Assembly (NCBI GenBank): GCA_022453515.1
Contig: JAJNNY010000091.1
Span: 53,230 to 117,229, forward strand
DNA length: 64,000 bases
DNA from: Astrocystis sublimbata
Taxonomy: Eukaryota; Ascomycota; Sordariomycetes; Xylariales; Xylariaceae
Direction: 5' to 3'
Under the pieces are notes generated by a model. That model was not told where the DNA came from and made no database searches. It was given only the letters and a program-made list of their open reading frames with translations. This document shows positions 25,943 to 64,000 of the stretch, one piece after another. Each line of letters opens with the position of its first letter. The stretch's first letter is position 1. Both the position numbers and the translations under genes were made by a program.

Positions 25943-28900
25943 CTAAATCTCCCGACTCTGACTCATAAAAGTCTTAGCCAGCTCGTCGCCCCCCTTCTGC
26001 GCCGTCTCCATCCAATGCAGCGCCACACACATGAGCGCCGGGTCGCTCCTCACATCATTATTAATCCCACTCGGGTCCCCTGCGCCCGTACCACTCAGGC
26101 CCGGCATGGCCGGCACCCGGGAGCGATCGCCCTGGTGTCTCGTGCTGCTCCCAGGGCGCATGCTGCTCGTATCCAGCCCGCTCGGCTGCTTGAAGATGTC
26201 GCGGGGCTTGGACAGCGGCAGCGTCGTGCGCGCGACGAGTTCGGGGTTCGAGAGCTGGAGGAGCCCGAGCTCGCGCTGCGCCGTGGGATCGCCCTCCTTG
26301 GCCGCGATCGTCAACATCCGCGCCGCGTCGTGCAGAGAGCTCTTCGGGAACAGCAGGTCCGGCATGCTGCTCACGGTGTAGCCGTTGTTGGACTTGCGCG
26401 ACGCGTCGACGATGCCGTCCGCGACCTCTACCATTGTCGACACGATCTCGTTCTTGAGCGACATGGCTGCTACAACGGTGTCGAAGTACGCATCGTTGCG
26501 GTCGAGGTCGAGCACGGAAGCAGGCACGAATGCGCTGATGAACTGCAAGTCGCGGAATAAAGTCTTGGGACGAATCTCGATATCCCGGAGGAGAGATTGG
26601 AGCACTGTGCGTAATGACTCTTGATGCCCTTTGTGGGCGGGGGCAATCGAGCGCGTCTCGACGTCTGAGATGGTTCGTATAGCAAGGCCTGACGTGGGGG
26701 TTCCATGCGTGGTAGTAGGCCGTCGGTCTTTCTCATTTAGCTCCTGCCTACTGTGCCCGCGCAGATCGTCGTGGGTGGTTTGATGTCGCGGCGTTAAACG
26801 CGGGCGACGACTACCGGAAGATAGAGAAGCACTGATGAGCTGCTCGAGCTCGTGGAGGATCTTGAGTTTAGCATAAGGATTGGGGTGGATAGAGAACATT
26901 CTCAACAACCGCTGGTAGGCCTTCCTGTACGGGAATATGGAGGTATCTTTCAAAGCCGCTGAAGGCAGTTTCAAAGAGGACTTTTCCTTGAACGCGGAGC
27001 TGACGATATGTCGTGAAGATGGGCTGTCACGTCTACGCGAGCCTTGACCACCCTGAGAGTCCCCAATTTCACGCAAATTGATCGAGCTCTTCTTCTTCTC
27101 CAATGACCGTTGTTTTGTTTGTCCGGAAGAGGTGTCTTGATTCGCCGAGGTCCGCTTGGCAACCTCATCCTCGGCCGAGCGAAGATCTAGACACTCCTGA
27201 CCCAGTTCGCTGAACCAGATGTCTGTTTCCGAGCCATAAGCATAGAGGAAGTTACCCAGGTCAGATATGAGCAGGCTGTAAAGAGTCTGGCGAAGATCGG
27301 ATAAAAAGCGGTGCTTCTCTTCCGAGAGGCGCTGTTGCTGAATCGTCTCGGTGGACGAAGCGGTTGTATCTTGGGTCAAAGAGGCTGACGAAGGTATCGA
27401 CTGTTGGTATGGATGCGAGAACAGTCCTGGCAAGCCACCTCGACTGCCGGTGGGAGACTGAGCCCGAGACGTCGCCGAACTGCTGGCCGACATGGTTGAG
27501 TTGAAGGGCGAGAAGAACGTTGTGGCGGAATCAATGGACGGCGACGAATGGCCGTAATGATAATCACGGGCATCCGACATGTCCAACGCGGCTGTGCTCG
27601 CTCGAGACCAACTCCGGCGTCCCGAGTCGAGCGAGATCTGGCTTCGGTTGCTCATACCGCGCAACACCGAACTAGGGCGGTTGGCAGTAGGCGTCCACCT
27701 TTGATTGTACTCGCTGCTGATGATACTCATGGCATCATCATTAGCTCCGTAGTTGCTCTCGCGATCTCGACTGCGACGGGGAGGGCCATCGAATGTCTTG
27801 CGGTCTCGCATAAATAGTGCGCTCGACCAGAGAACAGGATTAGAAGTTACACTGTCGCCAACCAACCTGCCCACGCAATTGTCGATTTCGCAACAAAGGC
27901 GGTGGATTCGTTCTTCGCCTGCACAGACGTTTCTAATGTGCGACTGCTGCAGCCACTTGTTTGTCTTCTCCACCTGGTCGTCTGTGAGTTTGTTCGGGCC
28001 ACCGTGCTCCTCCCGAGCAGCGAGCAGTCCGAGCATCTGAGACTCGGCTTTGTGAATGAAGTTCAGTGTAGGATTACGCGCCAGTTGGGCACGGCTCTCC
28101 TGGAATGAGCCCGGCATTCGAGGCACACCCATAATCTTGAGAGCACTGCAGAGAGTGCGGGCATGTACATAGACGTCCGAGTTGCGAACTTCCGTTACGT
28201 ACCACATCTTGTCACGGAGAGCCTTGAGGCGTGTCATCATGGTGTCGACCAATCCCTCATGTCTTTCTTGGCTTTGCTTGAGCCATATAAGCCAGGCGTC
28301 GTACTCTTCAATCGCCGACGCAGATTGATGGAGCGAATCGCGCGGGCCGCGCGAGAAGATATTAAGCAATGACGAGAACCCATTCTTTCGCAGCGAAGGA
28401 GAAGCAAGTGAGTTCAGTTGCTGAAGAGTTCTCCAGTACAGGTGGGCAGACACAAAGTCCGACTGAATTCGAGATTGCGAGGACGCTGCCGTTAACATGG
28501 CAATCAGTACTGAATGGTCCCCCTGGGAGGTCGTGTCGTCCCGTTTACGGTAAGGATTACGGCTGTTCATGTTCTTCTCCGGCGTGAGTATCTTAGTCTT
28601 CGATCGATATTTCTTCAGGCGCGATGCCCGATTGCTGAACGTAGTATGTGCGTCCTCGCCCTCCAGATTACGTGGGATCTCGAAGTCTTCCACAAGTCTC
28701 AAGATAGAATCACGTAGCTGGTGGTAGTCTTTGCTGAGTTCGGATTTCTCCTCTGGCTCTTCATCTTCACTGGTTGCAGAGGAAGGATCTTCGTCCTCTT
28801 CTTCCTCATCGGGGTCATAAGTCATCTGCATGGAGAGTCTCTCTCCATCCGCCGAGACGAATAGTACAGCCCATTTCTCGGCACATGGGTGACACGAGCC

Positions 28901-31339
28901 TTGTACGGCGTCGGCGCCGAGAACCCGAGTCATTTCACGCATAGCCGCGCGGAGTTTCTGACCGTCTTCCTCAAAGCTATCCGGCGGGCGCGAAGGCGCT
29001 TCCGAAAAAGATGGGGAATACCGTTGAGGCGTCCCCAACGTTCGATCAATTAGGGGCTCGTACCCTGTGGTCTCGCTACGCACAGGCGATACACTCATGC
29101 CGAAAACCGACGCACTATCCATCTCTCGCCTTGATGTCGCTACAGAGATGGGTTGCGAGATAGCGGAAAACCCAGACAGCGAAGGAGCCGCAGACCGCGC
29201 ACCGCTCGAGTGGGCAGATTGGGGACGGCGCTCTGGGAAAAGAGCATTGACCAAGGTAACAAGATCAGCGGGACTAATGACAAGAAAAGGATGCACCTCG
29301 GCAGTCTCTCGCAGGGAGGTAATGGACCTGGCTGGAAGGAGTCTCGCCGTCTTCTGGGCCCTGGACGGCTTAAACCGACCTACGAGGTTCTCGATGTGTT
29401 TCTTAATCTTCAAAGGAGTGGATACCGGCTGTCCCAAGTGGTGTGGTACTAACATGTCATTGACCAGGTCTCGAGCCTTGAGTGCGACATTCTTGAGTAT
29501 TCTTTGGCAGCCATACTCGGTGATATTGTACTCGGCCATCATGCCGAAATTCTCAGGATGAATAAGGACAGCAGTAAGCCAGTTGGAGAAGATCCATTTG
29601 TACACGAACCAGTGCCTTGTGGAATCAACCTTGGAGGGGGCCAGATTCTGTAGATGGCGAAGGATCTCATTTCCTAGTTCCATGATGCCCTCTGGGATGC
29701 CCGTGCCGTCTTCATCATCGAGTAGGTCGAAAAGGTCGTCCAGGACTTGGTCATAGAATTCCTCAATCCTGATGGTATCCTTTGTGGTCCAATCTCCGAT
29801 GTCGTGGAATCGGTTACCTTGGGGGTCATCAGCCCTGTCCAGGAGGAACGCACCGTCCTTCAAAACCTTCATGATAAACCATTCCATGCTAGACCGCCCA
29901 GCCCAGTCGCGCATAGCCGACCAAGCGTTGACTATGGCGACGAGAACATTTTCGTATTCGACAGGGGCTGCTTGGATTAGACGCGCGCAGGCGGTTGACC
30001 ATACCTGTGTTCTTCTCCTGTCCTCGGCGCTGTCTGGGCCAGCTGAATTGGCAAAACAAGTATAGATGAGGGTTGACAAGGGGTCGTGGCGTTGGAACGA
30101 CAGGAGCCGCTCAACAGCACTAGCAGAGGTTTTATTGGCGGTGCTGGCACTTCCACGACCGCTGGACTGCGCGCTGCCAAAGGGTAAGACAGACTCTATA
30201 GGATCCAATCCAACATGATATACAGTGAGAGCTTGGAGCTCGGCCACACTTAAGGCACACAATCGAGAGGCTAAATAGTCGGGGTTGGTCCGCAGCTGGG
30301 CTAGAAAATGGAGGATGGTGTCTCTGGAGGTGGCGTCGAGATCAGCTAGGAAAGGAGTGACAGGGCTGCCACTGATGCTCCCAGCAACACTAGGGGGATG
30401 GTCCAATGTATCGGACGAAGCCATGCCGGCCGGCTGCAGGTGGTGGAGATGGTGGTCCATGTCTGGTTCCAAAAGGGCGAAGCGACGGGTGGCGTCGCAA
30501 CTATTACGAACATCCTGAATGGCATCATACACCTTGGCAAACATGTGGGTGTCACCGGACCGGAACAGATCGGCCAGATTCCGTTGGGTGGTCTCGCCGC
30601 AACGGGTGAGACGCGCAGACAGGGCGGTCGAGATGAGGCTCCTCTGGAGACGTATGCGCGTGCTGGCGCGCTTGCGCTCCTGATACTTGGAGAGTCGAAC
30701 CAGATGGGCCAGCTCTTGGAGGGTGGTCCCCTCGTCCTCCACGGTTACGTAATTCGCCGAGAATTGGGATGCGTCGGCCAGGAGAGGCTGTGGCAGCTTG
30801 CGAGCGGGTCCATTTTCATCATCGGCGTCATCATCATCTTGGCGGTTGTCCTTGAGGGTGTCCTTGAGTGCATCCTTCAACGCGGAGTGAGGCGTGCTCG
30901 AGGACGAGACGGCGGCCGAATCGTGGACCGAGCTCGTGTTTGGTTCGGATGGGGCCGCCTGTTCCACCAAAGGTTTTAAGGGCACACTCGTGCCAGCGTC
31001 CTGTTTTACGTCATCACGAGAGGTATTGTTGCTGTCGTTGGCAGCTATTATCGGGTCAGTGGACTCGGGCGGCGGAGCAGAGTGCACAGGGCTTCGTGAT
31101 CGATGGCGCCGTGGCTGCGCCGTGACAGCTAGGACATTGGGCGAAGGACTCGAGGGTCGAGATGGGTTCGATGCGGTCGGCGACACAGCTAGAGCGCAGC
31201 GCATGAAAAGATCAGCAAGCACTGCTACGGGGCGCGAGGCGCAAGGGCACGGGGATCCATGTCTCGTGCGGGATCACTCACTGGAAGCTGGATGGACGCA
31301 GACCGGGGACGAGAGTGAGCGCTGCATGGAAATCATCAT
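25943..31339 (-). CDS. large Sel1-repeat-like fungal protein of unknown function (left-arm copy)
   Basis: Two exons on the minus strand, 31339-31282 and 31188-25943, with a 93-nt GT-AG intron; together 1768 codons, 1767 aa. I do not recognise a named function. Seen in order: Ser/Pro-rich disordered N-terminus (about 1-130); a long mostly helical region (about 150-680) with segments such as LADLFRSGDTHMFAKVYDAI and HWFVYKWIFSNWLTAVL; a second disordered part; an acidic tract DPDEEEEDEDP near residue 830; another helical block; Ser-rich low complexity (about 1190-1330); and a C-terminal part with Sel1-like helices (AARMLTIAAKEGDPTAQRELG, and later ALHWMETAQKGGDELAK). This suggests a cytoplasmic scaffold, but that is inference. 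The short first exon rests on splice signals and matching phase. Most of this gene (26174 to its start) is mirrored in the right arm. Confidence 0.75.
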
Positions 31340-31989
31340 GAGCCCTGGGAGGAAGCTGGGCTAGCAGCGAGTGAGCGTCTACGGCAGCAGCGCCCGCAAG
31401 AGTGCGACCGGGCGCGAGCGAGCGTAGCGACCGCTCAGAGTTTCGGGGTGATGCTCGATTCGCATGTGCGGGTTGACAGAGAACTTTCCGCCTCGGAAGG
31501 GAGCAGTGGAAAGAAAGCAGTGACACAAGTCTCGCTTTGGGTCGGTTAAAGACGACGGGAGTGTATCGTGACAGTCAGGCTCACGCGCGGGGTGGAGATT
31601 CAGCGAGCTTAGGCAGTCTTAGCTCTCGGAGCTACCCTAGCTAGCCTGGCTGGCTGGCTGGCTGTCAAAGAGGTAGTCAAGTGGATAGATGGGAGGTGTT
31701 GAGGGTTGATAGATAGGGCGGCCAGGACGAAGTCGAGGGCAGCCGGTCAAGGCGGGGTGACCGTTTTAGCTCATTTCCACGGAGGGCGACATTCGGACTC
31801 GAGCAGAAATGCGTATGGCAAGGTAGGGCTCGCTTCTGGCTAAGGTAGCAGCAAGGTATCGACCTGGGACTCTGGGACCTTGGGACCTTGGGTGTTTGGT
31901 TGGGGGCCTGGGTGTGTGTGTGGGTGGATTAATTGTAGGTAGGTAGAGACTGGTAGAGGTGGTGAGCGATGCCGTCACCTATGCTCACT

Positions 31990-32040
31990 TATATGTATGT
32001 GTATGTATGTATGTACGTATGAATATATGTACGTGTGTCT
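31990..32040. repeat. TATG/GTAT microsatellite
   Basis: Imperfect tandem tetranucleotide tract of TATG/TACG units in the 5' region of the large gene; mirrored at 58134-58184. Confidence 0.7.
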
Positions 32041-33395
32041 GTCTGTTCAGGGCCTGGTCACGGCTCTCCTCTTTACTCCGATATCTAAGGGTCCAAAATG
32101 ATGGGAATCAAGACATTGAAACATGGAAATTGGAGAAAGAGAGAAGGGAGCGGCATGAACTAGTCTGGAAAAGAAAAAGAAAAAAGTCGAAGTTGGAGAG
32201 GGAAACGAGGAAGAAGAAAGATGCGAAAGAGTCGATCAGTATCAGTACACGGGTGCTGGGCGCTGGGTGCTGGCCGGCCAGCTGTACAATGGCTGATGGG
32301 GAGTATAGCTACTGGGTTATAACGAGGAGTGAGGTGTATTGGCGGTTTTGGCATCGTTGTCCGCGGCTAGCGTCATGTAGCTGGACTGAAGCGATGGCTG
32401 GCTGCGGATACGCCAACGCCCCCTGTCGTGGCCAGCAGAGGCGGCGGGCCCAATCAGCGCACCGCGACGCCGCCGGCGACGGGGATGTGGTGTCGAGGTG
32501 TGTTGGACGGCCTAAGCTACGACCTAGTAGCACGTAGTACGCATATCGAACCGTCTAATGACAGGACCACGGCACAAGACGGTCACACAGCTTGTGGGTT
32601 GCGGGATGCGGTGGGATGTATGTGGTGTCGTGGTGTCGTGGGTGTATGTGTATATGGTGAGTGAATCCATCTCCATCCAGCCCATCGTTCGCTGTAGGTG
32701 TTATTGTTCGTCGAGCCTGTCGTTCATGCTGCGCTGATACTGTACGGATGTAGGTACAGTACGTAGCGAGCGTATGTATTGCAGCAACAGGCATGGCAAG
32801 CATGGAACATGGAACCTTCGCATGGAATATGGAGCTTTGGAGCAACGCAGCAGCAGCACCAGGGTAACGGGCAACGCATGGGTTTGCCACGATGTTGGGC
32901 CTGTCCTGGTTTTGCCTCCCTCTTCTGCCCCGGCTCTGTTCCGGTACCGTGCTGGGTTGTATCTACCGTGTTATACGACCATCACGAGCATGTGAAGTGG
33001 GTGGGTGAGCGGTACTCCTCTGGGGTGTACCGTCTTCGCCTCTTTCGAATCTGAGTGCGATGTGACCGAAAAGGGTCGAAGTTGTGGGGAACGACACGAA
33101 AAACCTGAAGTTGATTGAGGGAATTCGAAGAATACGACACGATGTCTTTCGTCATGTCATACAACCACGACGACCGCAATGGCGATGCCTCCCTTCTGAA
33201 CAGTGCTACAGTACAGACAGAAACCATGGCTACTACAGTGCTCCCCGTCACCTGATAATAACAGTGTATGATGACGGTAGGAGGATGAATACTTCCCTTT
33301 CTTTTTGGACTCAGTGCCTAGTAACCTCAGGTGTTTGTGGCTCAGTGTGTTTTGGAGTGTGGCGATACTGTATATTATGCGCGACATTCGATTTG

Positions 33396-33472
33396 GTGTG
33401 AGTGTGAGTGTGTGTTTGTGTGTGCAGGTGGTGGTGTGTGGTTTGTGGTGTGCACTGTGAGTGAGTGTGTGT
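33396..33472. repeat. GT-rich microsatellite
   Basis: Imperfect (GT)n/(GA)n tract of about 77 bp; mirrored at 56702-56778. It produces spurious Cys/Val- and His/Thr-rich frames on the two strands. Confidence 0.7.
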
Positions 33473-36400
33473 AAGTCGAAGTTGTCGGGTTGGTTGGTGT
33501 GTTTCGTGTTTCGCTGTTTCGCGGGGTTCTCTTAGTGCTGGGCTTACTGCAAGCAGGGCAAGTGCGACCAAATGCCGTGCGCCATCGCTGCTAGCCACGT
33601 CCCCTGCCACGCCTCTGCGGTATCGAACATGTCCCTTGCCACAGCAGTTGAGCCCCTCTCTACTTTCGCGGTACCTCCTTGCCTCCGTAGCTCAGATGCA
33701 ACCCCTCGACGGATCTGCCCATGGCCAGTTCTATCCAGGCCCCATCCAACTCCATCCATTCCATCCACTCCCACTGCAACCTCCACCCCCTCCCATCCAC
33801 GTCGACAATCACGAGTGACAGCATCCCTACATGGCTGAGGGCAGCACAGCATGAGCCGGGCAGCATATGAACACCAGCACCGCCTTTCGTCTCAACCCTC
33901 GAAGAATTGAGGCCAGTTTGTCCTCTCCGACAATTCTTACATTCATGTTTGCTAGCACCTACTAAGTACACACATCCCTCAGACCTCCGTGCCCGCTCGG
34001 ACTACGCAGTCGGACTGTGCGGCGAAGGGACTAAGCAAGCACTTGACTGGAAATGATTGATTAGCTGGCTGGTTGGTTGACCGACTGCGCGAGCGTGTGT
34101 TGGTGCGGCTGTGCGAGCGTGGTGTATGTGTGCGAATGACACGACAACGTCAAAGATGATGTGCTGGTCAGTAGGTAGGCGTCGAGCTGTTGTTCGCACC
34201 AAGTAAGCAGTCCGACAGAAGTAAGGTGAGTCTGGAGTCTGGAGTCTGGACTTGCCAGCGCAAGCACCGCTTCCACCGCCTTTCTGCTGATTATTGCCTT
34301 CCGCCTCGTCTTTCTCGTCACCGTCATCATACCATTATGCACTCACGAAACAAGAGATTTGGTCTTCGCTCTCGCTCTGGTCCTGGCCTCATGGCCTTAG
34401 CTTGTTTTGGTTTACTACCCAAGTAAGCCAGCAGCCTGTGTCTGACAGCTGTGAAGAGGCGGCCAGCGGGTTGCTACGCTGGCTTTGCATCGTGCATTGC
34501 TAGCACCATGCTATGATTGACGCTGTCTAACAGACGGGCGAGACGGGCTGCTTTTCTGTTTTGGTCCGCCTCCGCCATTTCGCATTAACCTATCGCATAA
34601 ACTCACATTTCACCACACTTCCCGAACCGGCTGGTTGCCGGATCATGGACCGACCATAGCTGGACGACATTTCCTGGCTCAGGTACCCAGGTAGTCAGCA
34701 ATAGCCGCTGTTTATTATGCTCGAATCTCTTTTGTTTTTCTCGCTTCTTTTGTTTCCCGCTCCTTCGCTGGCGAGTGGCAGAGGACGAGAGCGGACGTCG
34801 TCGTCAGGAGGGGAGCGAGGGGAGCCCGGCCCCAGACCAACCCGTCATATCCATCCACCCAATCCACTCCATCCACGTCGCCCACGCGCCAACCCCTCGA
34901 GGAACCAGCTCCTCTTTTTTTTTCCCTCCCTTCTTCCCCTCTGCCCCCTTTGCCAACGCATCGAAATAGCCACCTGCAAGCCCTGCAAGTGAAGAGCTTG
35001 TCGCGCCAGCCCAGCCGCTGCACGCTAGGTCGATCCACGTCCCGCATCCTCTCGTCTATCGTTGGCTGGCAACTCAGGCGCCCTGTCGCGCATGTCTTGT
35101 GCCTTTTTCCCTCCCTCGCCGCCATTGGATTGGGCATGCCGCTGCAGTGGATGACTGATGCGCCGGCATGGTGATGAGGAATCAGACGAACGGCCTGGCT
35201 CTACGGAGCCTAAGGTGAGCACAAACCGGATCCGCCACGTCCCAGTCTGGCCAATCCGCGTCCGATCCGCCTCTCGCCCAGCGGCCCCTGGACCTATCCC
35301 GAAGATCCTCGTGGCCGTTAGACCCATGCACCTCTTCGAATACCCCTTTTTCAGCCTTGTACCAATCTCGAAACCCTGCACGTCACCTGTAAGGGTACCG
35401 GCGATAGTGTCCCAGCCGCATTCTTCGCTTCCCTTCTCTTCCCTTCCCAATGCCGTCGTCGTCTTCCTCCATGGCGGGGTATAGCGCGGCCGGTTATCGA
35501 GGCCCAACTTCCGAAACAAGCATACGTTGTACAGATTGACTTGGTTTGGAAATTTAACTGCATGTTGTCGTTGTAGAGCCGTGCTGCCTGCCTGCCATCA
35601 CAGCAGCTACAACGTATTGACAACTAAGACACGGGATACAGAATAGTCACTGCAGCAGTCAAGCCTTAGCTCCTCATGCGGATTAGCCTCCATTATCCCG
35701 CCCGGCATTCTTTGTTCAACTCGCTCCTCGCTGACCGCTACAATTTTGACCTCGATGATTGGACCTCGGCAGCCAAAGCCAACTGTGAGGTCTCTTAGTC
35801 CGTTGCTGTTGGTTCCAATGGCAGCCAGCTATCAATCAATGCCCGAAAAATTCCGCGTGGTTGAGATCAGGACATGCGACTCGAGACAAGGCATTCATCA
35901 TATAAATCATCTATCCAATGATCACCAGAGCTATAAACATGATGTACGCCTATGACAGGGTATAAGCTGAGCAAGTCACGAGACAAGACGCGATTTACAC
36001 TACACATATACAGTAGATCCCGCAGCTTGCTTGATGGTTCGCGCAATGACCCCAACTTGTTTTATTTTTCATTGGATCTTTTCTCATTGGGCCGTCGTCC
36101 AGCTTCGACCTGCAAGGTACTAACTAACAAAGTACTGACTGATCACTTATCATTTGTGCTTGCCCCTTGGTTCGTACCCGCACGCCCAGGGCAACCTCGT
36201 GACGGCCCGATATTCGCCGAGTGCGAATCGTGCCGCACTTTTCGTCACTGCTTTGCTTACCTGCTCTGTCCTGCCTGACTTTCTTCTTTGTCCATCAGGT
36301 TATTCAGATTTATTCCAGGCTGACGCAGTGCCTAGTGCGTAAGTAAGACAGCGCAGCAGTAGCAGTATTGAAAAGGTTTCAACGCGGGCCGACCCGCCCC

Positions 36401-36841
36401 ATGGGCATGTGACACGTCGCGATAATCTGAAAAAAAAAAATTCATGTATATTAGGTCTAGGTCTGTATGGTCTGTATGTGGTTTTGGTTGTATGTACTCT
36501 ACTGTACCAGAGGACAGATTTAGCTTGAGATCGAGGTCGAGATCGAGGTCTGGTGATCTAGTGATCCAGCGAATGTGGACGATGTAAACAAGTAAACATC
36601 AGACGACGCACATGCCAGAAAAGAGGCAGAATGAGCTGCGTGTTTCAGATCGTGCCTAATGGAGCATTGTTGTTGCTGAACTGGTTTCCCGAAGTAGGCA
36701 GTTAAGGCAGTCATGACTGCTTTTAAGGTTGTATTGGGCAGACTTACATCCACACACTTGCAGCTGCTTGCGTGCTTATGTGCAGGCTGTTAAGCTCACG
36801 CCATAAAGACAGACATGGGAGCATATATACATACATATGGG

Positions 36842-36930
36842 TAGGAAGGAAGGGAAGGGAAGGGAAGGGGGGGTGGGGAAGGGAGGGGGGGAGAACTGAG
36901 ATGAGATGAGATGAGATGACGAGGGGAGGG
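36842..36930. repeat. purine tract with GGGAA and GAGAT repeats
   Basis: Almost pure purine strand: GGGAA units, G runs of 7, and four GAGAT units. Contains the G7 run (36867-36873) that is 6 long in the mirror copy (53302-53307). Such tracts can form unusual structures and are error-prone in sequencing. Confidence 0.75.
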
Positions 36931-38839
36931 AAAAAGACCTTGCATAATGTGACGGAACTGTTACCCTGCTTTCCTAACCTTCCAGCATTAAAACTTCTAC
37001 TGGTCATACTACTACTGGCTATTGAGTCAGTGATTCAGTGAGTCAGTAATTTGAGTCACCCAGCGGATACTCAGAATCTAGAACTTGAACACCTAGGTAG
37101 TGATGAACAGAAGAATAGATCTACGATCACCGAGATACAACCACCTAAGCCTACCCCATGGGTGTCTACATGTATTTGAATCTATACTTGGATACCCAGT
37201 ACTATATGAACGCTGCGCCTGACGCGATTCCAGTATCGGTAGACTGACTAGCAAGATATATATACGTACAGCTCTTGCGCGCTTGCGCAGGTACGAGTGT
37301 TATGGGACTGGGATGGGCTGGGTTGAACATGTAGTTCGTGTGTTTATCTTTCAGGGGGTGAACTTGTCGTTCGTTTGCCTTGTACTTCCTTGCTCGACCT
37401 CTCTGCATACCATACTTATACTACCTATACCTATGCCTACCTGTCTGTGTATGTATGTGTGTATGTCCATGTATGTAGGCAAGGTCGGGCATCAATACAT
37501 TTGTGAGAAGGGATGCATTCTCTCTCTCCTTCTTCTTTTTCCCCTTCCTTGCTTCCTTTCCTACTTACCGGAATGGGATAGGAAAACTTTTTCGCTGCGA
37601 GCAAGTGAGTAGCAAGCTCCGTAGCTCTATAGCTTGGTTTGGTTGGTTGGTTGGTTGGTAGCTTGGTTCGCCCAAGTCGAATAGATCTGTGCGTTTGCAT
37701 GGCAGGGAGTGGATGTATGGATGGATGGGCAGCGCGACGCGACGCATTGGGGATCGATCACATATCCATCGCCTTGCATCGCATCGCATGACATGACATG
37801 GCATATTCATGCGTGCCTAACTGGGCGTATTGGGACTTTGACTTTGCCTTGTTGAGATGCGTACATACCTACTAGTACATACTGGCACTCACACACTCAT
37901 ATGCTAAAGCAGATACTGATACATTCAGCGATTCCAGAATGCCTTCATGCGAGGGACCTACTACCTACATACCCAGGTATAATAGAATATTATGAGGTAT
38001 TTGATTTCAAACAGAACGAGACCCCTTATATGTGTATTACTGCTTAATAAAAGCAGCTCTATGATAACTGTAATAGTACTAATAATATTATATAGACAGA
38101 GAATACCGTATAATCATGAGCAGTTCCATGATCTATCATCAAGAATGAGAGTAGAACTTGGAGGGAAAGCACTTCTTTCTTTTTCCTCTTTTCCTCCTTT
38201 CCTCCTTTCCATTCTTATTTTCACTTTTTACACTCACATTTCTATCAACTCATCTCCCTCCTAATGCAGCTCATGAAAGAGATAGCTAAAACTCCTACAT
38301 ACCCACCTAGAACGGGTAGACTCTGCAACATCATGTTAAAATGTGTACCCATGTAATACCTAGATCTCGGGTCACAAGCTAGGGGTCAAATAGAAACAAA
38401 ATAGTGACACATAACCACACACCAGCAGAGTAAGTACTAGGAAGTTAGTAAACATGAAGTTTAAAATGATGTTAGATAAGGTAGAAAGAGACAAAGCAAG
38501 TAGGAGAAAGGATAGTAAGGATAGCAAAGCATACTATATCAGACTAACGCTATAACAACAGGAAATGCGCCGATATCTTAATATAATACGATCGCAATAG
38601 TGGGCATGTAAAACAAGTGCTGAGGCTTGTATTAGAGAGAGCCAATTCATTTCATTTTGATTTCGTCCTCACATGTCTTATTGACTTTGACTTTGACTCA
38701 GGTGACCATAGTACTCGTATACCACATCTCACATCGACTCTCGAATAACCCCTCACATCGAGTCTATCCACCTCTTTTCCTCAACATCTCTATACTCCTT
38801 CTACTCACTCACTTTTCCTCTACCCACTCACCAACTCAC

Positions 38840-48594: not shown

Positions 48595-49304
48595 GGCAGG
48601 GTCTGCGTGTGTATATGTATTTGATTGGGGCGTGGGGTGGCAATATGCCTCGTCCTCGTGGGTTGTTGTCGTCGGCGCTCGTGAGGATCTCTGGTATGGC
48701 GGTTTAATAGCTTCAAAGTCTGATGGGCTAAAATCAGACCTGGGTCAAGAGGTACCTTGTACCTAGATCGGACCAGGCTTGCTAGGGTCGCGAATTGGGA
48801 CAAGGGAAAGATGAAATGATCTGGGGCAGAAAAAAAGATGGATACCTGACATGCCAGGCCACAGTCGATAGGCCTTATCGTTATCGTGGTCCATGGTCAT
48901 GCTTATCGCCTTATCGCAGAGCTCCCCTCGTCACTCTCACTGACCTGCGTGCTAGCCAGCCAGTGACCCCGCCATGCGACACACGGCAACCCCGCCACGC
49001 CATGAGCCATGCCGATGCTTTTTTTGACCCCGCCACGATCAATCAAATCGACTGACTGAGGGTCTGTGATGACGGACTACCCAATTGTTACTAAAACACT
49101 TTATCCTTGACTCAATTATAAGACGACGTCGGGGTCAGCTACCAACCCCCAACTTCCAACTCTCAACCCAACATACAAGTGCAGCTTGAGTTGACATTCT
49201 TTTTCTTCTACGCTTCTGATTATACTATTGCAAGCGGAATTGGTCTTCTTCTTTAACTTCACAACCCGTGGTGCACGTGCATTGTATCCATCACGGCTTC
49301 CAAC
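48595..49304. other. bidirectional promoter region (uL1m / GUS1), right-arm copy
   Basis: Mirror of 40871-41580. No gene seen. Confidence 0.55.
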
Positions 49305-51335: not shown

Positions 51336-54300
51336 GTGAGTTGGTGAGTGGGTAGAGGAAAAGTGAGTGAGTAGAAGGAGTATAGAGATGTTGAGGAAAA
51401 GAGGTGGATAGACTCGATGTGAGGGGTTATTCGAGAGTCGATGTGAGATGTGGTATACGAGTACTATGGTCACCTGAGTCAAAGTCAAAGTCAATAAGAC
51501 ATGTGAGGACGAAATCAAAATGAAATGAATTGGCTCTCTCTAATACAAGCCTCAGCACTTGTTTTACATGCCCACTATTGCGATCGTATTATATTAAGAT
51601 ATCGGCGCATTTCCTGTTGTTATAGCGTTAGTCTGATATAGTATGCTTTGCTATCCTTACTATCCTTTCTCCTACTTGCTTTGTCTCTTTCTACCTTATC
51701 TAACATCATTTTAAACTTCATGTTTACTAACTTCCTAGTACTTACTCTGCTGGTGTGTGGTTATGTGTCACTATTTTGTTTCTATTTGACCCCTAGCTTG
51801 TGACCCGAGATCTAGGTATTACATGGGTACACATTTTAACATGATGTTGCAGAGTCTACCCGTTCTAGGTGGGTATGTAGGAGTTTTAGCTATCTCTTTC
51901 ATGAGCTGCATTAGGAGGGAGATGAGTTGATAGAAATGTGAGTGTAAAAAGTGAAAATAAGAATGGAAAGGAGGAAAGGAGGAAAAGAGGAAAAAGAAAG
52001 AAGTGCTTTCCCTCCAAGTTCTACTCTCATTCTTGATGATAGATCATGGAACTGCTCATGATTATACGGTATTCTCTGTCTATATAATATTATTAGTACT
52101 ATTACAGTTATCATAGAGCTGCTTTTATTAAGCAGTAATACACATATAAGGGGTCTCGTTCTGTTTGAAATCAAATACCTCATAATATTCTATTATACCT
52201 GGGTATGTAGGTAGTAGGTCCCTCGCATGAAGGCATTCTGGAATCGCTGAATGTATCAGTATCTGCTTTAGCATATGAGTGTGTGAGTGCCAGTATGTAC
52301 TAGTAGGTATGTACGCATCTCAACAAGGCAAAGTCAAAGTCCCAATACGCCCAGTTAGGCACGCATGAATATGCCATGTCATGTCATGCGATGCGATGCA
52401 AGGCGATGGATATGTGATCGATCCCCAATGCGTCGCGTCGCGCTGCCCATCCATCCATACATCCACTCCCTGCCATGCAAACGCACAGATCTATTCGACT
52501 TGGGCGAACCAAGCTACCAACCAACCAACCAACCAAACCAAGCTATAGAGCTACGGAGCTTGCTACTCACTTGCTCGCAGCGAAAAAGTTTTCCTATCCC
52601 ATTCCGGTAAGTAGGAAAGGAAGCAAGGAAGGGGAAAAAGAAGAAGGAGAGAGAGAATGCATCCCTTCTCACAAATGTATTGATGCCCGACCTTGCCTAC
52701 ATACATGGACATACACACATACATACACAGACAGGTAGGCATAGGTATAGGTAGTATAAGTATGGTATGCAGAGAGGTCGAGCAAGGAAGTACAAGGCAA
52801 ACGAACGACAAGTTCACCCCCTGAAAGATAAACACACGAACTACATGTTCAACCCAGCCCATCCCAGTCCCATAACACTCGTACCTGCGCAAGCGCGCAA
52901 GAGCTGTACGTATATATATCTTGCTAGTCAGTCTACCGATACTGGAATCGCGTCAGGCGCAGCGTTCATATAGTACTGGGTATCCAAGTATAGATTCAAA
53001 TACATGTAGACACCCATGGGGTAGGCTTAGGTGGTTGTATCTCGGTGATCGTAGATCTATTCTTCTGTTCATCACTACCTAGGTGTTCAAGTTCTAGATT
53101 CTGAGTATCCGCTGGGTGACTCAAATTACTGACTCACTGAATCACTGACTCAATAGCCAGTAGTAGTATGACCAGTAGAAGTTTTAATGCTGGAAGGTTA
53201 GGAAAGCAGGGTAACAGTTCCGTCACATTATGCAAGGTCTTTTTCCCTCCCCTCGTCATCTCATCTCATCTCATCTCAGTTCTCCCCCCCTCCCTTCCCC
53301 ACCCCCCTTCCCTTCCCTTCCCTTCCTTCCTACCCATATGTATGTATATATGCTCCCATGTCTGTCTTTATGGCGTGAGCTTAACAGCCTGCACATAAGC
53401 ACGCAAGCAGCTGCAAGTGTGTGGATGTAAGTCTGCCCAATACAACCTTAAAAGCAGTCATGACTGCCTTAACTGCCTACTTCGGGAAACCAGTTCAGCA
53501 ACAACAATGCTCCATTAGGCACGATCTGAAACACGCAGCTCATTCTGCCTCTTTTCTGGCATGTGCGTCGTCTGATGTTTACTTGTTTACATCGTCCACA
53601 TTCGCTGGATCACTAGATCACCAGACCTCGATCTCGACCTCGATCTCAAGCTAAATCTGTCCTCTGGTACAGTAGAGTACATACAACCAAAACCACATAC
53701 AGACCATACAGACCTAGACCTAATATACATGAATTTTTTTTTTTCAGATTATCGCGACGTGTCACATGCCCATGGGGCGGGTCGGCCCGCGTTGAAACCT
53801 TTTCAATACTGCTACTGCTGCGCTGTCTTACTTACGCACTAGGCACTGCGTCAGCCTGGAATAAATCTGAATAACCTGATGGACAAAGAAGAAAGTCAGG
53901 CAGGACAGAGCAGGTAAGCAAAGCAGTGACGAAAAGTGCGGCACGATTCGCACTCGGCGAATATCGGGCCGTCACGAGGTTGCCCTGGGCGTGCGGGTAC
54001 GAACCAAGGGGCAAGCACAAATGATAAGTGATCAGTCAGTACTTTGTTAGTTAGTACCTTGCAGGTCGAAGCTGGACGACGGCCCAATGAGAAAAGATCC
54101 AATGAAAAATAAAACAAGTTGGGGTCATTGCGCGAACCATCAAGCAAGCTGCGGGATCTACTGTATATGTGTAGTGTAAATCGCGTCTTGTCTCGTGACT
54201 TGCTCAGCTTATACCCTGTCATAGGCGTACATCATGTTTATAGCTCTGGTGATCATTGGATAGATGATTTATATGATGAATGCCTTGTCTCGAGTCGCAT

Positions 54301-57300
54301 GTCCTGATCTCAACCACGCGGAATTTTTCGGGCATTGATTGATAGCTGGCTGCCATTGGAACCAACAGCAACGGACTAAGAGACCTCACAGTTGGCTTTG
54401 GCTGCCGAGGTCCAATCATCGAGGTCAAAATTGTAGCGGTCAGCGAGGAGCGAGTTGAACAAAGAATGCCGGGCGGGATAATGGAGGCTAATCCGCATGA
54501 GGAGCTAAGGCTTGACTGCTGCAGTGACTATTCTGTATCCCGTGTCTTAGTTGTCAATACGTTGTAGCTGCTGTGATGGCAGGCAGGCAGCACGGCTCTA
54601 CAACGACAACATGCAGTTAAATTTCCAAACCAAGTCAATCTGTACAACGTATGCTTGTTTCGGAAGTTGGGCCTCGATAACCGGCCGCGCTATACCCCGC
54701 CATGGAGGAAGACGACGACGGCATTGGGAAGGGAAGAGAAGGGAAGCGAAGAATGCGGCTGGGACACTATCGCCGGTACCCTTACAGGTGACGTGCAGGG
54801 TTTCGAGATTGGTACAAGGCTGAAAAAGGGGTATTCGAAGAGGTGCATGGGTCTAACGGCCACGAGGATCTTCGGGATAGGTCCAGGGGCCGCTGGGCGA
54901 GAGGCGGATCGGACGCGGATTGGCCAGACTGGGACGTGGCGGATCCGGTTTGTGCTCACCTTAGGCTCCGTAGAGCCAGGCCGTTCGTCTGATTCCTCAT
55001 CACCATGCCGGCGCATCAGTCATCCACTGCAGCGGCATGCCCAATCCAATGGCGGCGAGGGAGGGAAAAAGGCACAAGACATGCGCGACAGGGCGCCTGA
55101 GTTGCCAGCCAACGATAGACGAGAGGATGCGGGACGTGGATCGACCTAGCGTGCAGCGGCTGGGCTGGCGCGACAAGCTCTTCACTTGCAGGGCTTGCAG
55201 GTGGCTATTTCGATGCGTTGGCAAAGGGGGCAGAGGGGAAGAAGGGAGGGAAAAAAAAAGAGGAGCTGGTTCCTCGAGGGGTTGGCGCGTGGGCGACGTG
55301 GATGGAGTGGATTGGGTGGATGGATATGACGGGTTGGTCTGGGGCCGGGCTCCCCTCGCTCCCCTCCTGACGACGACGTCCGCTCTCGTCCTCTGCCACT
55401 CGCCAGCGAAGGAGCGGGAAACAAAAGAAGCGAGAAAAACAAAAGAGATTCGAGCATAATAAACAGCGGCTATTGCTGACTACCTGGGTACCTGAGCCAG
55501 GAAATGTCGTCCAGCTATGGTCGGTCCATGATCCGGCAACCAGCCGGTTCGGGAAGTGTGGTGAAATGTGAGTTTATGCGATAGGTTAATGCGAAATGGC
55601 GGAGGCGGACCAAAACAGAAAAGCAGCCCGTCTCGCCCGTCTGTTAGACAGCGTCAATCATAGCATGGTGCTAGCAATGCACGATGCAAAGCCAGCGTAG
55701 CAACCCGCTGGCCGCCTCTTCACAGCTGTCAGACACAGGCTGCTGGCTTACTTGGGTAGTAAACCAAAACAAGCTAAGGCCATGAGGCCAGGACCAGAGC
55801 GAGAGCGAAGACCAAATCTCTTGTTTCGTGAGTGCATAATGGTATGATGACGGTGACGAGAAAGACGAGGCGGAAGGCAATAATCAGCAGAAAGGCGGTG
55901 GAAGCGGTGCTTGCGCTGGCAAGTCCAGACTCCAGACTCCAGACTCACCTTACTTCTGTCGGACTGCTTACTTGGTGCGAACAACAGCTCGACGCCTACC
56001 TACTGACCAGCACATCATCTTTGACGTTGTCGTGTCATTCGCACACATACACCACGCTCGCACAGCCGCACCAACACACGCTCGCGCAGTCGGTCAACCA
56101 ACCAGCCAGCTAATCAATCATTTCCAGTCAAGTGCTTGCTTAGTCCCTTCGCCGCACAGTCCGACTGCGTAGTCCGAGCGGGCACGGAGGTCTGAGGGAT
56201 GTGTGTACTTAGTAGGTGCTAGCAAACATGAATGTAAGAATTGTCGGAGAGGACAAACTGGCCTCAATTCTTCGAGGGTTGAGACGAAAGGCGGTGCTGG
56301 TGTTCATATGCTGCCCGGCTCATGCTGTGCTGCCCTCAGCCATGTAGGGATGCTGTCACTCGTGATTGTCGACGTGGATGGGAGGGGGTGGAGGTTGCAG
56401 TGGGAGTGGATGGAATGGATGGAGTTGGATGGGGCCTGGATAGAACTGGCCATGGGCAGATCCGTCGAGGGGTTGCATCTGAGCTACGGAGGCAAGGAGG
56501 TACCGCGAAAGTAGAGAGGGGCTCAACTGCTGTGGCAAGGGACATGTTCGATACCGCAGAGGCGTGGCAGGGGACGTGGCTAGCAGCGATGGCGCACGGC
56601 ATTTGGTCGCACTTGCCCTGCTTGCAGTAAGCCCAGCACTAAGAGAACCCCGCGAAACAGCGAAACACGAAACACACCAACCAACCCGACAACTTCGACT
56701 TACACACACTCACTCACAGTGCACACCACAAACCACACACCACCACCTGCACACACAAACACACACTCACACTCACACCAAATCGAATGTCGCGCATAAT
56801 ATACAGTATCGCCACACTCCAAAACACACTGAGCCACAAACACCTGAGGTTACTAGGCACTGAGTCCAAAAAGAAAGGGAAGTATTCATCCTCCTACCGT
56901 CATCATACACTGTTATTATCAGGTGACGGGGAGCACTGTAGTAGCCATGGTTTCTGTCTGTACTGTAGCACTGTTCAGAAGGGAGGCATCGCCATTGCGG
57001 TCGTCGTGGTTGTATGACATGACGAAAGACATCGTGTCGTATTCTTCGAATTCCCTCAATCAACTTCAGGTTTTTCGTGTCGTTCCCCACAACTTCGACC
57101 CTTTTCGGTCACATCGCACTCAGATTCGAAAGAGGCGAAGACGGTACACCCCAGAGGAGTACCGCTCACCCACCCACTTCACATGCTCGTGATGGTCGTA
57201 TAACACGGTAGATACAACCCAGCACGGTACCGGAACAGAGCCGGGGCAGAAGAGGGAGGCAAAACCAGGACAGGCCCAACATCGTGGCAAACCCATGCGT

Positions 57301-58834
57301 TGCCCGTTACCCTGGTGCTGCTGCTGCGTTGCTCCAAAGCTCCATATTCCATGCGAAGGTTCCATGTTCCATGCTTGCCATGCCTGTTGCTGCAATACAT
57401 ACGCTCGCTACGTACTGTACCTACATCCGTACAGTATCAGCGCAGCATGAACGACAGGCTCGACGAACAATAACACCTACAGCGAACGATGGGCTGGATG
57501 GAGATGGATTCACTCACCATATACACATACACCCACGACACCACGACACCACATACATCCCACCGCATCCCGCAACCCACAAGCTGTGTGACCGTCTTGT
57601 GCCGTGGTCCTGTCATTAGACGGTTCGATATGCGTACTACGTGCTACTAGGTCGTAGCTTAGGCCGTCCAACACACCTCGACACCACATCCCCGTCGCCG
57701 GCGGCGTCGCGGTGCGCTGATTGGGCCCGCCGCCTCTGCTGGCCACGACAGGGGGCGTTGGCGTATCCGCAGCCAGCCATCGCTTCAGTCCAGCTACATG
57801 ACGCTAGCCGCGGACAACGATGCCAAAACCGCCAATACACCTCACTCCTCGTTATAACCCAGTAGCTATACTCCCCATCAGCCATTGTACAGCTGGCCGG
57901 CCAGCACCCAGCGCCCAGCACCCGTGTACTGATACTGATCGACTCTTTCGCATCTTTCTTCTTCCTCGTTTCCCTCTCCAACTTCGACTTTTTTCTTTTT
58001 CTTTTCCAGACTAGTTCATGCCGCTCCCTTCTCTCTTTCTCCAATTTCCATGTTTCAATGTCTTGATTCCCATCATTTTGGACCCTTAGATATCGGAGTA
58101 AAGAGGAGAGCCGTGACCAGGCCCTGAACAGACAGACACACGTACATATATTCATACGTACATACATACATACACATACATATAAGTGAGCATAGGTGAC
58201 GGCATCGCTCACCACCTCTACCAGTCTCTACCTACCTACAATTAATCCACCCACACACACACCCAGGCCCCCAACCAAACACCCAAGGTCCCAAGGTCCC
58301 AGAGTCCCAGGTCGATACCTTGCTGCTACCTTAGCCAGAAGCGAGCCCTACCTTGCCATACGCATTTCTGCTCGAGTCCGAATGTCGCCCTCCGTGGAAA
58401 TGAGCTAAAACGGTCACCCCGCCTTGACCGGCTGCCCTCGACTTCGTCCTGGCCGCCCTATCTATCAACCCTCAACACCTCCCATCTATCCACTTGACTA
58501 CCTCTTTGACAGCCAGCCAGCCAGCCAGGCTAGCTAGGGTAGCTCCGAGAGCTAAGACTGCCTAAGCTCGCTGAATCTCCACCCCGCGCGTGAGCCTGAC
58601 TGTCACGATACACTCCCGTCGTCTTTAACCGACCCAAAGCGAGACTTGTGTCACTGCTTTCTTTCCACTGCTCCCTTCCGAGGCGGAAAGTTCTCTGTCA
58701 ACCCGCACATGCGAATCGAGCATCACCCCGAAACTCTGAGCGGTCGCTACGCTCGCTCGCGCCCGGTCGCACTCTTGCGGGCGCTGCTGCCGTAGACGCT
58801 CACTCGCTGCTAGCCCAGCTTCCTCCCAGGGCTC
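51336..58834. other. 7.5-kb gene-free region, right-arm copy
   Basis: Mirror of 31340-38839, identical except for C6 at 53302-53307 against G7 in the left arm. That one-base change alters the length of a spurious short frame (53168-53398), which supports the view that the frame is not a gene. No supported gene, tRNA or transposon. Confidence 0.55.
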
Positions 58835-61800
58835 ATGATGATTTCCATGCAGCGCTCACTCTCGTCCCCGGTCTGCGTCCATCCAGCTTCCAGTGAGTGA
58901 TCCCGCACGAGACATGGATCCCCGTGCCCTTGCGCCTCGCGCCCCGTAGCAGTGCTTGCTGATCTTTTCATGCGCTGCGCTCTAGCTGTGTCGCCGACCG
59001 CATCGAACCCATCTCGACCCTCGAGTCCTTCGCCCAATGTCCTAGCTGTCACGGCGCAGCCACGGCGCCATCGATCACGAAGCCCTGTGCACTCTGCTCC
59101 GCCGCCCGAGTCCACTGACCCGATAATAGCTGCCAACGACAGCAACAATACCTCTCGTGATGACGTAAAACAGGACGCTGGCACGAGTGTGCCCTTAAAA
59201 CCTTTGGTGGAACAGGCGGCCCCATCCGAACCAAACACGAGCTCGGTCCACGATTCGGCCGCCGTCTCGTCCTCGAGCACGCCTCACTCCGCGTTGAAGG
59301 ATGCACTCAAGGACACCCTCAAGGACAACCGCCAAGATGATGATGACGCCGATGATGAAAATGGACCCGCTCGCAAGCTGCCACAGCCTCTCCTGGCCGA
59401 CGCATCCCAATTCTCGGCGAATTACGTAACCGTGGAGGACGAGGGGACCACCCTCCAAGAGCTGGCCCATCTGGTTCGACTCTCCAAGTATCAGGAGCGC
59501 AAGCGCGCCAGCACGCGCATACGTCTCCAGAGGAGCCTCATCTCGACCGCCCTGTCTGCGCGTCTCACCCGTTGCGGCGAGACCACCCAACGGAATCTGG
59601 CCGATCTGTTCCGGTCCGGTGACACCCACATGTTTGCCAAGGTGTATGATGCCATTCAGGATGTTCGTAATAGTTGCGACGCCACCCGTCGCTTCGCCCT
59701 TTTGGAACCAGACATGGACCACCATCTCCACCACCTGCAGCCGGCCGGCATGGCTTCGTCCGATACATTGGACCATCCCCCTAGTGTTGCTGGGAGCATC
59801 AGTGGCAGCCCTGTCACTCCTTTCCTAGCTGATCTCGACGCCACCTCCAGAGACACCATCCTCCATTTTCTAGCCCAGCTGCGGACCAACCCCGACTATT
59901 TAGCCTCTCGATTGTGTGCCTTAAGTGTGGCCGAGCTCCAAGCTCTCACTGTATATCATGTTGGATTGGATCCTATAGAGTCTGTCTTACCCTTTGGCAG
60001 CGCGCAGTCCAGCGGTCGTGGAAGTGCCAGCACCGCCAATAAAACCTCTGCTAGTGCTGTTGAGCGGCTCCTGTCGTTCCAACGCCACGACCCCTTGTCA
60101 ACCCTCATCTATACTTGTTTTGCCAATTCAGCTGGCCCAGACAGCGCCGAGGACAGGAGAAGAACACAGGTATGGTCAACCGCCTGCGCGCGTCTAATCC
60201 AAGCAGCCCCTGTCGAATACGAAAATGTTCTCGTCGCCATAGTCAACGCTTGGTCGGCTATGCGCGACTGGGCTGGGCGGTCTAGCATGGAATGGTTTAT
60301 CATGAAGGTTTTGAAGGACGGTGCGTTCCTCCTGGACAGGGCTGATGACCCCCAAGGTAACCGATTCCACGACATCGGAGATTGGACCACAAAGGATACC
60401 ATCAGGATTGAGGAATTCTATGACCAAGTCCTGGACGACCTTTTCGACCTACTCGATGATGAAGACGGCACGGGCATCCCAGAGGGCATCATGGAACTAG
60501 GAAATGAGATCCTTCGCCATCTACAGAATCTGGCCCCCTCCAAGGTTGATTCCACAAGGCACTGGTTCGTGTACAAATGGATCTTCTCCAACTGGCTTAC
60601 TGCTGTCCTTATTCATCCTGAGAATTTCGGCATGATGGCCGAGTACAATATCACCGAGTATGGCTGCCAAAGAATACTCAAGAATGTCGCACTCAAGGCT
60701 CGAGACCTGGTCAATGACATGTTAGTACCACACCACTTGGGACAGCCGGTATCCACTCCTTTGAAGATTAAGAAACACATCGAGAACCTCGTAGGTCGGT
60801 TTAAGCCGTCCAGGGCCCAGAAGACGGCGAGACTCCTTCCAGCCAGGTCCATTACCTCCCTGCGAGAGACTGCCGAGGTGCATCCTTTTCTTGTCATTAG
60901 TCCCGCTGATCTTGTTACCTTGGTCAATGCTCTTTTCCCAGAGCGCCGTCCCCAATCTGCCCACTCGAGCGGTGCGCGGTCTGCGGCTCCTTCGCTGTCT
61001 GGGTTTTCCGCTATCTCGCAACCCATCTCTGTAGCGACATCAAGGCGAGAGATGGATAGTGCGTCGGTTTTCGGCATGAGTGTATCGCCTGTGCGTAGCG
61101 AGACCACAGGGTACGAGCCCCTAATTGATCGAACGTTGGGGACGCCTCAACGGTATTCCCCATCTTTTTCGGAAGCGCCTTCGCGCCCGCCGGATAGCTT
61201 TGAGGAAGACGGTCAGAAACTCCGCGCGGCTATGCGTGAAATGACTCGGGTTCTCGGCGCCGACGCCGTACAAGGCTCGTGTCACCCATGTGCCGAGAAA
61301 TGGGCTGTACTATTCGTCTCGGCGGATGGAGAGAGACTCTCCATGCAGATGACTTATGACCCCGATGAGGAAGAAGAGGACGAAGATCCTTCCTCTGCAA
61401 CCAGTGAAGATGAAGAGCCAGAGGAGAAATCCGAACTCAGCAAAGACTACCACCAGCTACGTGATTCTATCTTGAGACTTGTGGAAGACTTCGAGATCCC
61501 ACGTAATCTGGAGGGCGAGGACGCACATACTACGTTCAGCAATCGGGCATCGCGCCTGAAGAAATATCGATCGAAGACTAAGATACTCACGCCGGAGAAG
61601 AACATGAACAGCCGTAATCCTTACCGTAAACGGGACGACACGACCTCCCAGGGGGACCATTCAGTACTGATTGCCATGTTAACGGCAGCGTCCTCGCAAT
61701 CTCGAATTCAGTCGGACTTTGTGTCTGCCCACCTGTACTGGAGAACTCTTCAGCAACTGAACTCACTTGCTTCTCCTTCGCTGCGAAAGAATGGGTTCTC

Positions 61801-64000
61801 GTCATTGCTTAATATCTTCTCGCGCGGCCCGCGCGATTCGCTCCATCAATCTGCGTCGGCGATTGAAGAGTACGACGCCTGGCTTATATGGCTCAAGCAA
61901 AGCCAAGAAAGACATGAGGGATTGGTCGACACCATGATGACACGCCTCAAGGCTCTCCGTGACAAGATGTGGTACGTAACGGAAGTTCGCAACTCGGACG
62001 TCTATGTACATGCCCGCACTCTCTGCAGTGCTCTCAAGATTATGGGTGTGCCTCGAATGCCGGGCTCATTCCAGGAGAGCCGTGCCCAACTGGCGCGTAA
62101 TCCTACACTGAACTTCATTCACAAAGCCGAGTCTCAGATGCTCGGACTGCTCGCTGCTCGGGAGGAGCACGGTGGCCCGAACAAACTCACAGACGACCAG
62201 GTGGAGAAGACAAACAAGTGGCTGCAGCAGTCGCACATTAGAAACGTCTGTGCAGGCGAAGAACGAATCCACCGCCTTTGTTGCGAAATCGACAATTGCG
62301 TGGGCAGGTTGGTTGGCGACAGTGTAACTTCTAATCCTGTTCTCTGGTCGAGCGCACTATTTATGCGAGACCGCAAGACATTCGATGGCCCTCCCCGTCG
62401 CAGTCGAGATCGCGAGAGCAACTACGGAGCTAATGATGATGCCATGAGTATCATCAGCAGCGAGTACAATCAAAGGTGGACGCCTACTGCCAACCGCCCT
62501 AGTTCGGTGTTGCGCGGTATGAGCAACCGAAGCCAGATCTCGCTCGACTCGGGACGCCGGAGTTGGTCTCGAGCGAGCACAGCCGCGTTGGACATGTCGG
62601 ATGCCCGTGATTATCATTACGGCCATTCGTCGCCGTCCATTGATTCCGCCACAACGTTCTTCTCGCCCTTCAACTCAACCATGTCGGCCAGCAGTTCGGC
62701 GACGTCTCGGGCTCAGTCTCCCACCGGCAGTCGAGGTGGCTTGCCAGGACTGTTCTCGCATCCATACCAACAGTCGATACCTTCGTCAGCCTCTTTGACC
62801 CAAGATACAACCGCTTCGTCCACCGAGACGATTCAGCAACAGCGCCTCTCGGAAGAGAAGCACCGCTTTTTATCCGATCTTCGCCAGACTCTTTACAGCC
62901 TGCTCATATCTGACCTGGGTAACTTCCTCTATGCTTATGGCTCGGAAACAGACATCTGGTTCAGCGAACTGGGTCAGGAGTGTCTAGATCTTCGCTCGGC
63001 CGAGGATGAGGTTGCCAAGCGGACCTCGGCGAATCAAGACACCTCTTCCGGACAAACAAAACAACGGTCATTGGAGAAGAAGAAGAGCTCGATCAATTTG
63101 CGTGAAATTGGGGACTCTCAGGGTGGTCAAGGCTCGCGTAGACGTGACAGCCCATCTTCACGACATATCGTCAGCTCCGCGTTCAAGGAAAAGTCCTCTT
63201 TGAAACTGCCTTCAGCGGCTTTGAAAGATACCTCCATATTCCCGTACAGGAAGGCCTACCAGCGGTTGTTGAGAATGTTCTCTATCCACCCCAATCCTTA
63301 TGCTAAACTCAAGATCCTCCACGAGCTCGAGCAGCTCATCAGTGCTTCTCTATCTTCCGGTAGTCGTCGCCCGCGTTTAACGCCGCGACATCAAACCACC
63401 CACGACGATCTGCGCGGGCACAGTAGGCAGGAGCTAAATGAGAAAGACCGACGGCCTACTACCACGCATGGAACCCCCACGTCAGGCCTTGCTATACGAA
63501 CCATCTCAGACGTCGAGACGCGCTCGATTGCCCCCGCCCACAAAGGGCATCAAGAGTCATTACGCACAGTGCTCCAATCTCTCCTCCGGGATATCGAGAT
63601 TCGTCCCAAGACTTTATTCCGCGACTTGCAGTTCATCAGCGCATTCGTGCCTGCTTCCGTGCTCGACCTCGACCGCAACGATGCGTACTTCGACACCGTT
63701 GTAGCAGCCATGTCGCTCAAGAACGAGATCGTGTCGACAATGGTAGAGGTCGCGGACGGCATCGTCGACGCGTCGCGCAAGTCCAACAACGGCTACACCG
63801 TGAGCAGCATGCCGGACCTGCTGTTCCCGAAGAGCTCTCTGCACGACGCGGCGCGGATGTTGACGATCGCGGCCAAGGAGGGCGATCCCACGGCGCAGCG
63901 CGAGCTCGGGCTCCTCCAGCTCTCGAACCCCGAACTCGTCGCGCGCACGACGCTGCCGCTGTCCAAGCCCCGCGACATCTTCAAGCAGCCGAGCGGGCTG
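58835..64000 (+). CDS. large Sel1-repeat-like protein (right-arm copy, truncated by the window end)
   Basis: Mirror of the gene at 25943-31339. Exon 1 is 58835-58892 (MMISMQRSLSSPVCVHPAS plus one base), the intron 58893-58985 starts GTGAGT and ends CTCTAG, and exon 2 starts at 58986 and runs past 64000. The last residues seen are KPRDIFKQPSGL, so about 75 C-terminal residues lie outside the window. The spliced frame continues directly into VSPTASNPSRPSSPSP. Within the visible part the translation equals the left copy. Confidence 0.75.

Follow-up and report, generated by a model that had tools for sequence, protein, structure and literature searches.

A near-perfect palindrome at a contig end of Astrocystis sublimbata is almost certainly a fold-back artefact

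We analysed a stretch of 64,000 nucleotides (nt) from the Astrocystis sublimbata assembly GCA_022453515.1 (the window), which corresponds to positions 53230-117229 of contig JAJNNY010000091.1 (hereafter C181) in an assembly of 42.6 Mb and 189 contigs, and whose right-hand part is a large palindrome that turns inside a dispersed inverted-repeat element. Judged from the assembled contigs, this palindrome is almost certainly a fold-back artefact at a contig end and not a structure of the chromosome. The same defect recurs at other contig ends, two of the folded loci are also present unfolded, and the likely missing half of the element cut by the fold lies in another contig.

A first-pass annotation of the window had described 26174-45083 as the reverse complement of 45091-64000, with only two one-base homopolymer differences between the arms, and both statements are borne out. 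Besides the trivial self-match, BLAST of the window against itself returned one inverted match, which spans 26174-64000 at 99.984% identity with zero mismatches, and direct comparison of the arms found exactly two differences, both one-base homopolymer indels (seven G at 36867 versus six at 53307, and six C at 43487 versus seven at 46688); a chance origin of the mirror is excluded. The span 26174-64000 given there for the palindrome holds as a mirror but not as an outer limit, as window position 64000 is the last base of C181 (117229), where the right arm stops without unique DNA beyond, and 26174 is merely the mirror of that end, inside a 1759-residue open reading frame (ORF) and not an arm boundary of its own. 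A chromosomal palindrome would have a unique flank on each side, and here the assembly has no right flank; what it has is a near-identical inverted copy of the adjacent DNA, free of substitutions, that stops with the contig, as expected of a fold-back artefact. C181 extends 79402 bases leftwards of the left arm and, over all its 117229 bases, contains no double TTAGGG on either strand. When the assembly was searched with two pieces of the arm, 26174-31500 and 41000-45050 (31501-40999 being left out), full-length matches were found only in C181, in the left arm and its mirror, and the other matches of the second piece were short repeats.

Palindromes of this kind are found elsewhere in the assembly. 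Including C181, nine of them were not picked through their own contig tip (C181, C132, C111, C11, C66, C75, C65, C52 and C13), and all nine run to a contig end. For seven of them (all but C181 and C13), the mirrored pairs were chosen by eye among the matches listed when the assembly was searched with the element or with telomere repeats. The whole arm was checked in C181, and the tips and centres in the other eight. The terminal 300 bases of C66, C75, C65, C52, C111, C11 and C132 match the mirrored place inverted at 99.67-100%, as do the last 120 bases of C13, which was met through C68, at 99.17%. The spacers of C181, C66, C75, C65, C52, C111, C132 and C11 measure 7, 35, 35, 81, 271, 28, 13 and 21 nt, respectively, and in seven palindromes (all but C181 and C13) the arms beside the spacer are 99.2-100% alike over 258-912 nt, with no mismatches and 0 to 5 gaps. 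We also sampled the contigs systematically, taking every ninth one from C5 to C176 (20 contigs with 40 tips) and leaving out three poly-A or AT-rich starts. At least 7 of the 37 remaining tips have an inverted match in their own contig (the ends of C41, C32 and C14, the last at 95%, and the starts of C59, C23, C68 and C158), a lower bound in that 40 of 152 candidates from the tip search were scored, whereas none of 20 interior pieces of long contigs had a second match of any kind.

For two of the folded tips, the assembly also holds the locus without its fold. The turn of C32 lies at about C179:671985-672021 and that of C59 at about C126:208870, and both C179 (977734 bases) and C126 (332434 bases) run linearly through these places (671410-672610 and 208290-209490, respectively), with no inverted self-match in either stretch. 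Read by eye, the C59 turn is CCTATGGC-TGAACCTCGAGGGTCT-GCCATAGG, and the same strand in C126 is CCTATGGCTGAACCTCGAGGGTCTGCCCGGCC; it seems that a 3' end GCC annealed to GGC, with a natural loop of 16 nt between the two, and that its extension then copied the very strand it belonged to. At C32, the turn is less cleanly readable. For C181, it is only the likely other half of the locus that can be seen, in C65.

The element at the C181 fold resembles miniature inverted-repeat transposable elements (MITE-like), with the ends CATGTGGGGGTAAGATTAAGTGTCC and GGACACTTAATGTGACTCCCCCTTG around an AT-rich middle, and is dispersed in the assembly: the 181 bases around the centre have 71 matches, many of them a single place met on both strands, and the family has at least 44 matches in one assembly search. 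Our alignment of it draws on 20 stretches elsewhere and has 22 rows, of which two come from the mirrored pair of C11. Both ends were found by pattern in 13 stretches, and copies with one end found are left out of the counts that follow; in these 13, the element is 187-286 nt long and is flanked by a 5-bp duplication that is exact in ten and has one mismatch in three. The target duplications of the family are often CCTGG, CCAGG or similar. Hairpins made by a transposase at the element ends were considered as the origin of the folds and rejected for C181, C66, C75 and C65, where the fold falls within the element.

C181 holds only the left part of its element copy, cut by the fold, and C65 is likely to be its true continuation. 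The 27-mer at the fold, GTAAAATAACTATTATATAATTAATAA, has exact matches in the assembly only at C181:98309-98335 and C65:1698-1724. C65 is 19725 bases long and its first 3.5 kb are themselves a fold-back, which turns near 1.74 kb in the matching stretch of the element; it carries the right half of the element and then CCTGG, the same five bases that precede the element in C181. In C181, 88 nt precede the 27-mer, and in C65, 192 nt are counted from it; together they make 280 nt, a length that falls in the span seen for whole copies. A join of the two contigs through the shared 27-mer and the CCTGG flank is likely, not proven. With C65 taken as the natural sequence, the C181 turn reads by eye as TTAT-ATAATTA-ATAA, a 4-bp stem with a 7-nt loop. 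Two other contigs were tried as the missing distal side of C181 and rejected, C66 for a different flank (ACTGT) and an overlap that by eye has mismatches, and C75 for mismatches seen by eye in the overlap, its flank not being found by pattern.

The fold points also share a base composition. We examined 16 of them, two of which, C13 and C68, are one locus. Over 120 nt, the AT fraction is at least 0.72 at 14 and lower only at C32 (0.58) and C59 (0.46), for which linear counterparts exist. Among the 20 interior pieces, the mean is 0.51 and the maximum 0.61, and 7 of the 40 tips reach 0.70. The assembly may break at AT-rich DNA and be left with fold-back reads at its tips, or single strands rich in AT may be more prone to snap back.

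Within an artefactual origin, we judge snap-back priming to be the probable route. A single strand of the C181 locus would have snapped back inside the AT-rich inverted-repeat element, during library preparation or in an earlier amplification step, and its 3' end ATAA, paired with TTAT 7 nt upstream, would have been extended by copying the strand to which it belonged. One or more chimeric reads would then have been built into the contig, adding an inverted copy of 18.9 kb until read support ended, and the real chromosome would most likely run through the rest of the element into C65. That reads folded, and at which step and on which platform, we infer from the assembled contigs; our literature search found no record of the sequencing method or amplification for this genome, and the main text of a Xylariaceae paper (PMC12403724) does not mention Astrocystis.

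Comparable artefacts are described for both sequencing and amplification. Fold-back reads are reported to make up roughly 0.55-0.6% of nanopore genomic reads, turns longer than 11 bases are typically found in fewer than half of them, and recurrent fold-back sites occur (Heinz, Meyerson and Li 2026, PMC12870357). Like our palindromes, these reads are near-perfect, often have little or no sequence at the turn and come from sites that other reads cross linearly; unlike them, they are described in reads, whereas here the inverted copies lie in assembled contig ends. In multiple displacement amplification (MDA), 406 of 475 chimeras (85%) were inverted and 76.8% began at a complementary stretch of at least two bases and at most 21 (Lasken and Stockwell 2007, PMC1855051), and palindromic reads after amplification, with an effect on assembly, are reported by Warris et al. 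(2018, PMC6218980) and Vecchi et al. (2026, PMC13265396). The likeness lies in inverted joining at short complementary stretches, read by eye as 4 bp at C181 and 3 bp at C59 and so within the 2-21 nt of the MDA chimeras, and in the damage to long-read assembly; the source DNA was amplified in those studies, as ours may have been.

Several observations weigh against an artefact. Virtually no fold-backs were seen in a PacBio HiFi sample, and few recurrent fold-back sites in recent nanopore genomic data, as reported in PMC12870357. The difference between sampled tips and interior pieces is only moderately strong (Fisher one-sided p = 0.039). With one mismatch, the 27-mer occurs at four other places in the assembly, and CCTGG stands beside other copies of the element too, so that the flank match alone is weak. 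A preference for AT-rich folds, as at 14 of 16 points, is also expected of fragile sites in vivo, and the two folds that linear contigs disprove are precisely the two that lack AT-richness. Finally, no linear contig across the centre of C181 was found in the assembly, and because of this the case for an artefact there rests on the recurrence elsewhere and on the pairing with C65.

One rival explanation is a genuine fold-back inversion in vivo, in which a break in the AT-rich element was capped by a hairpin and replicated, so that the chromosome ended in a palindrome, either in every nucleus or in a mosaic. Foldback inversions that arise through single-stranded hairpins are reported in yeast (PMC7467729), and a short inverted repeat or hairpin at the turn, as described for such events (PMC7467729, PMC10622511), is matched here by the 4-bp inverted repeat and 7-nt loop in an AT-rich element. 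Junction geometry alone cannot separate folding in vivo from folding in vitro; the assembly-wide pattern does. An inversion in the living fungus would require palindromes to have arisen independently on many contigs and always to stop at the contig end, as nine of nine do, while two of the folded loci are present unrearranged as well. No closed rearranged chromosome is seen, the assembly retains the distal half of a matching element (C65), and the arms are free of substitutions; we consider such an inversion very improbable. We give as little credence to a variant in which hairpin ends arise in vivo by breakage of AT-rich inverted-repeat elements and the culture is a mosaic of palindromic ends at many loci beside their linear parents. 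Natural palindromes kept alike by conversion do exist, and an old inverted duplication maintained by gene conversion would be a further natural origin; that the arm stops at the very last base of the contig, that its 18.9 kb show no substitution and that the fold cuts an element whose likely other half is in another contig make it the most remote of the explanations considered. The first-pass annotation had set a natural palindrome beside a fold-back or contig-end artefact and held that the choice could not be made from the window by itself; it is the latter that is favoured by the sampled tips, the two linear loci and C65, at the expense of the former.

Among artefacts, a missed hairpin adapter or a concatenation of template and complement at a random fragment end, without priming, would also yield near-identical arms and duplicates at contig ends, and the outcome for a reader of the assembly would be the same. 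Such an origin is a share of the artefactual explanation and not an addition to it, and we hold it to be unlikely. The missed-adapter version is less likely than snap-back because, at the two turns for which a natural sequence was there to compare (C181 with C65 and C59 with C126), the loops are natural sequence between short natural inverted repeats (TTAT-ATAATTA-ATAA; GGC-16 nt-GCC), which a random end does not predict, nor does it predict AT-rich folds at 14 of 16 points when 0 of 20 interior pieces reach an AT fraction of 0.70. That homopolymer indels are the only differences between the arms, one of them breaking the COG2 gene, we also count for an artefact.

If the right arm is an artefact, the four genes per arm counted in the first-pass annotation are one gene set copied once too often (Table 1). 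The two COG2 copies differ because of the homopolymer indel. The 120 relatives listed for COG2 align with 83-100% of the 335-residue frame, and the closest named relative is an Astrocystis protein, 93% alike over the full query. In this deposited protein, 25 residues are missing from residue 192 onwards, the position encoded at the homopolymer, as would happen in a gene model drawn around the frameshift, perhaps by way of a false intron. Outside the arms, a 1175-residue ORF at 12983-16510 (+) matches NPHP3_N, GPIID_WHD and WD40-type models, a domain set that we take to be that of fungal NLR-like proteins.

Table 1 Features of the palindrome and its surroundings, in window coordinates
Feature	Position	Strand	Remarks
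1759-residue ORF	25943..31222	-	without Pfam match; contains 26174
Left arm	26174..45083	+	ordinary genomic DNA that runs on from the unique contig on its left
Glutamyl/glutaminyl-tRNA synthetase ORF, left copy	38840..40297	-	mirror at 49878-51335 (+)
COG2 ORF, left copy	43306..44061	-	251 residues; frameshifted at the six-C run at 43487
CCTGG, left 5-bp target-site duplication	44975..44979	+	CCTGG also closes the C65 half on its outer side
Left part of the element, starting CATGTGGGGGTAAGATTAAGTGTCC	44980..45083	+	cut by the fold; mirrored side 7 nt longer
27-mer GTAAAATAACTATTATATAATTAATAA at the fold	45080..45106	-	C181:98309-98335
7-nt spacer TAATTAT	45084..45090	.	complement ATAATTA is natural element sequence (putative snap-back loop)
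Right arm	45091..64000	-	inverted copy of the left arm to the last base of C181; judged artefactual
COG2 ORF, right copy	46113..47120	+	open frame of 335 residues; aligned with Xylariaceae COG2 proteins

Some of the other palindromes have features of their own. C13:817822-817828 and C68:9168-9623 represent one palindromic locus with the same inner arm boundary and with spacers of a few nt versus about 454 nt. In C132:275136-280358, short blocks of telomere repeat lie about 490 bases apart within the mirrored arms, and a similar pair of blocks is found at the telomere end of C15; the blocks and this likeness suggest that the C132 fold is near a chromosome end. The assembly-wide search with the telomere repeat counted 145 places. 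Separately, a repeat family found in C4, C105, C110, C137 and C157, with copies 83-95% alike, is common to the tips of C5, C77, C86 and C149; its matches in C110 and most of those in C157 are near contig ends, and the family is perhaps subtelomeric.

Inverted false ends appear to lie on a sizeable share of the contigs, at no fewer than 7 of the 37 sampled tips. They duplicate genes, may have spoiled one gene model, and could give rise to false palindromes, paralogues and rearrangements in comparative work. Unless reads show the contrary, the right arm of C181 is to be regarded as false, and the palindrome matters not as a piece of the biology of A. sublimbata but as a warning about this assembly.

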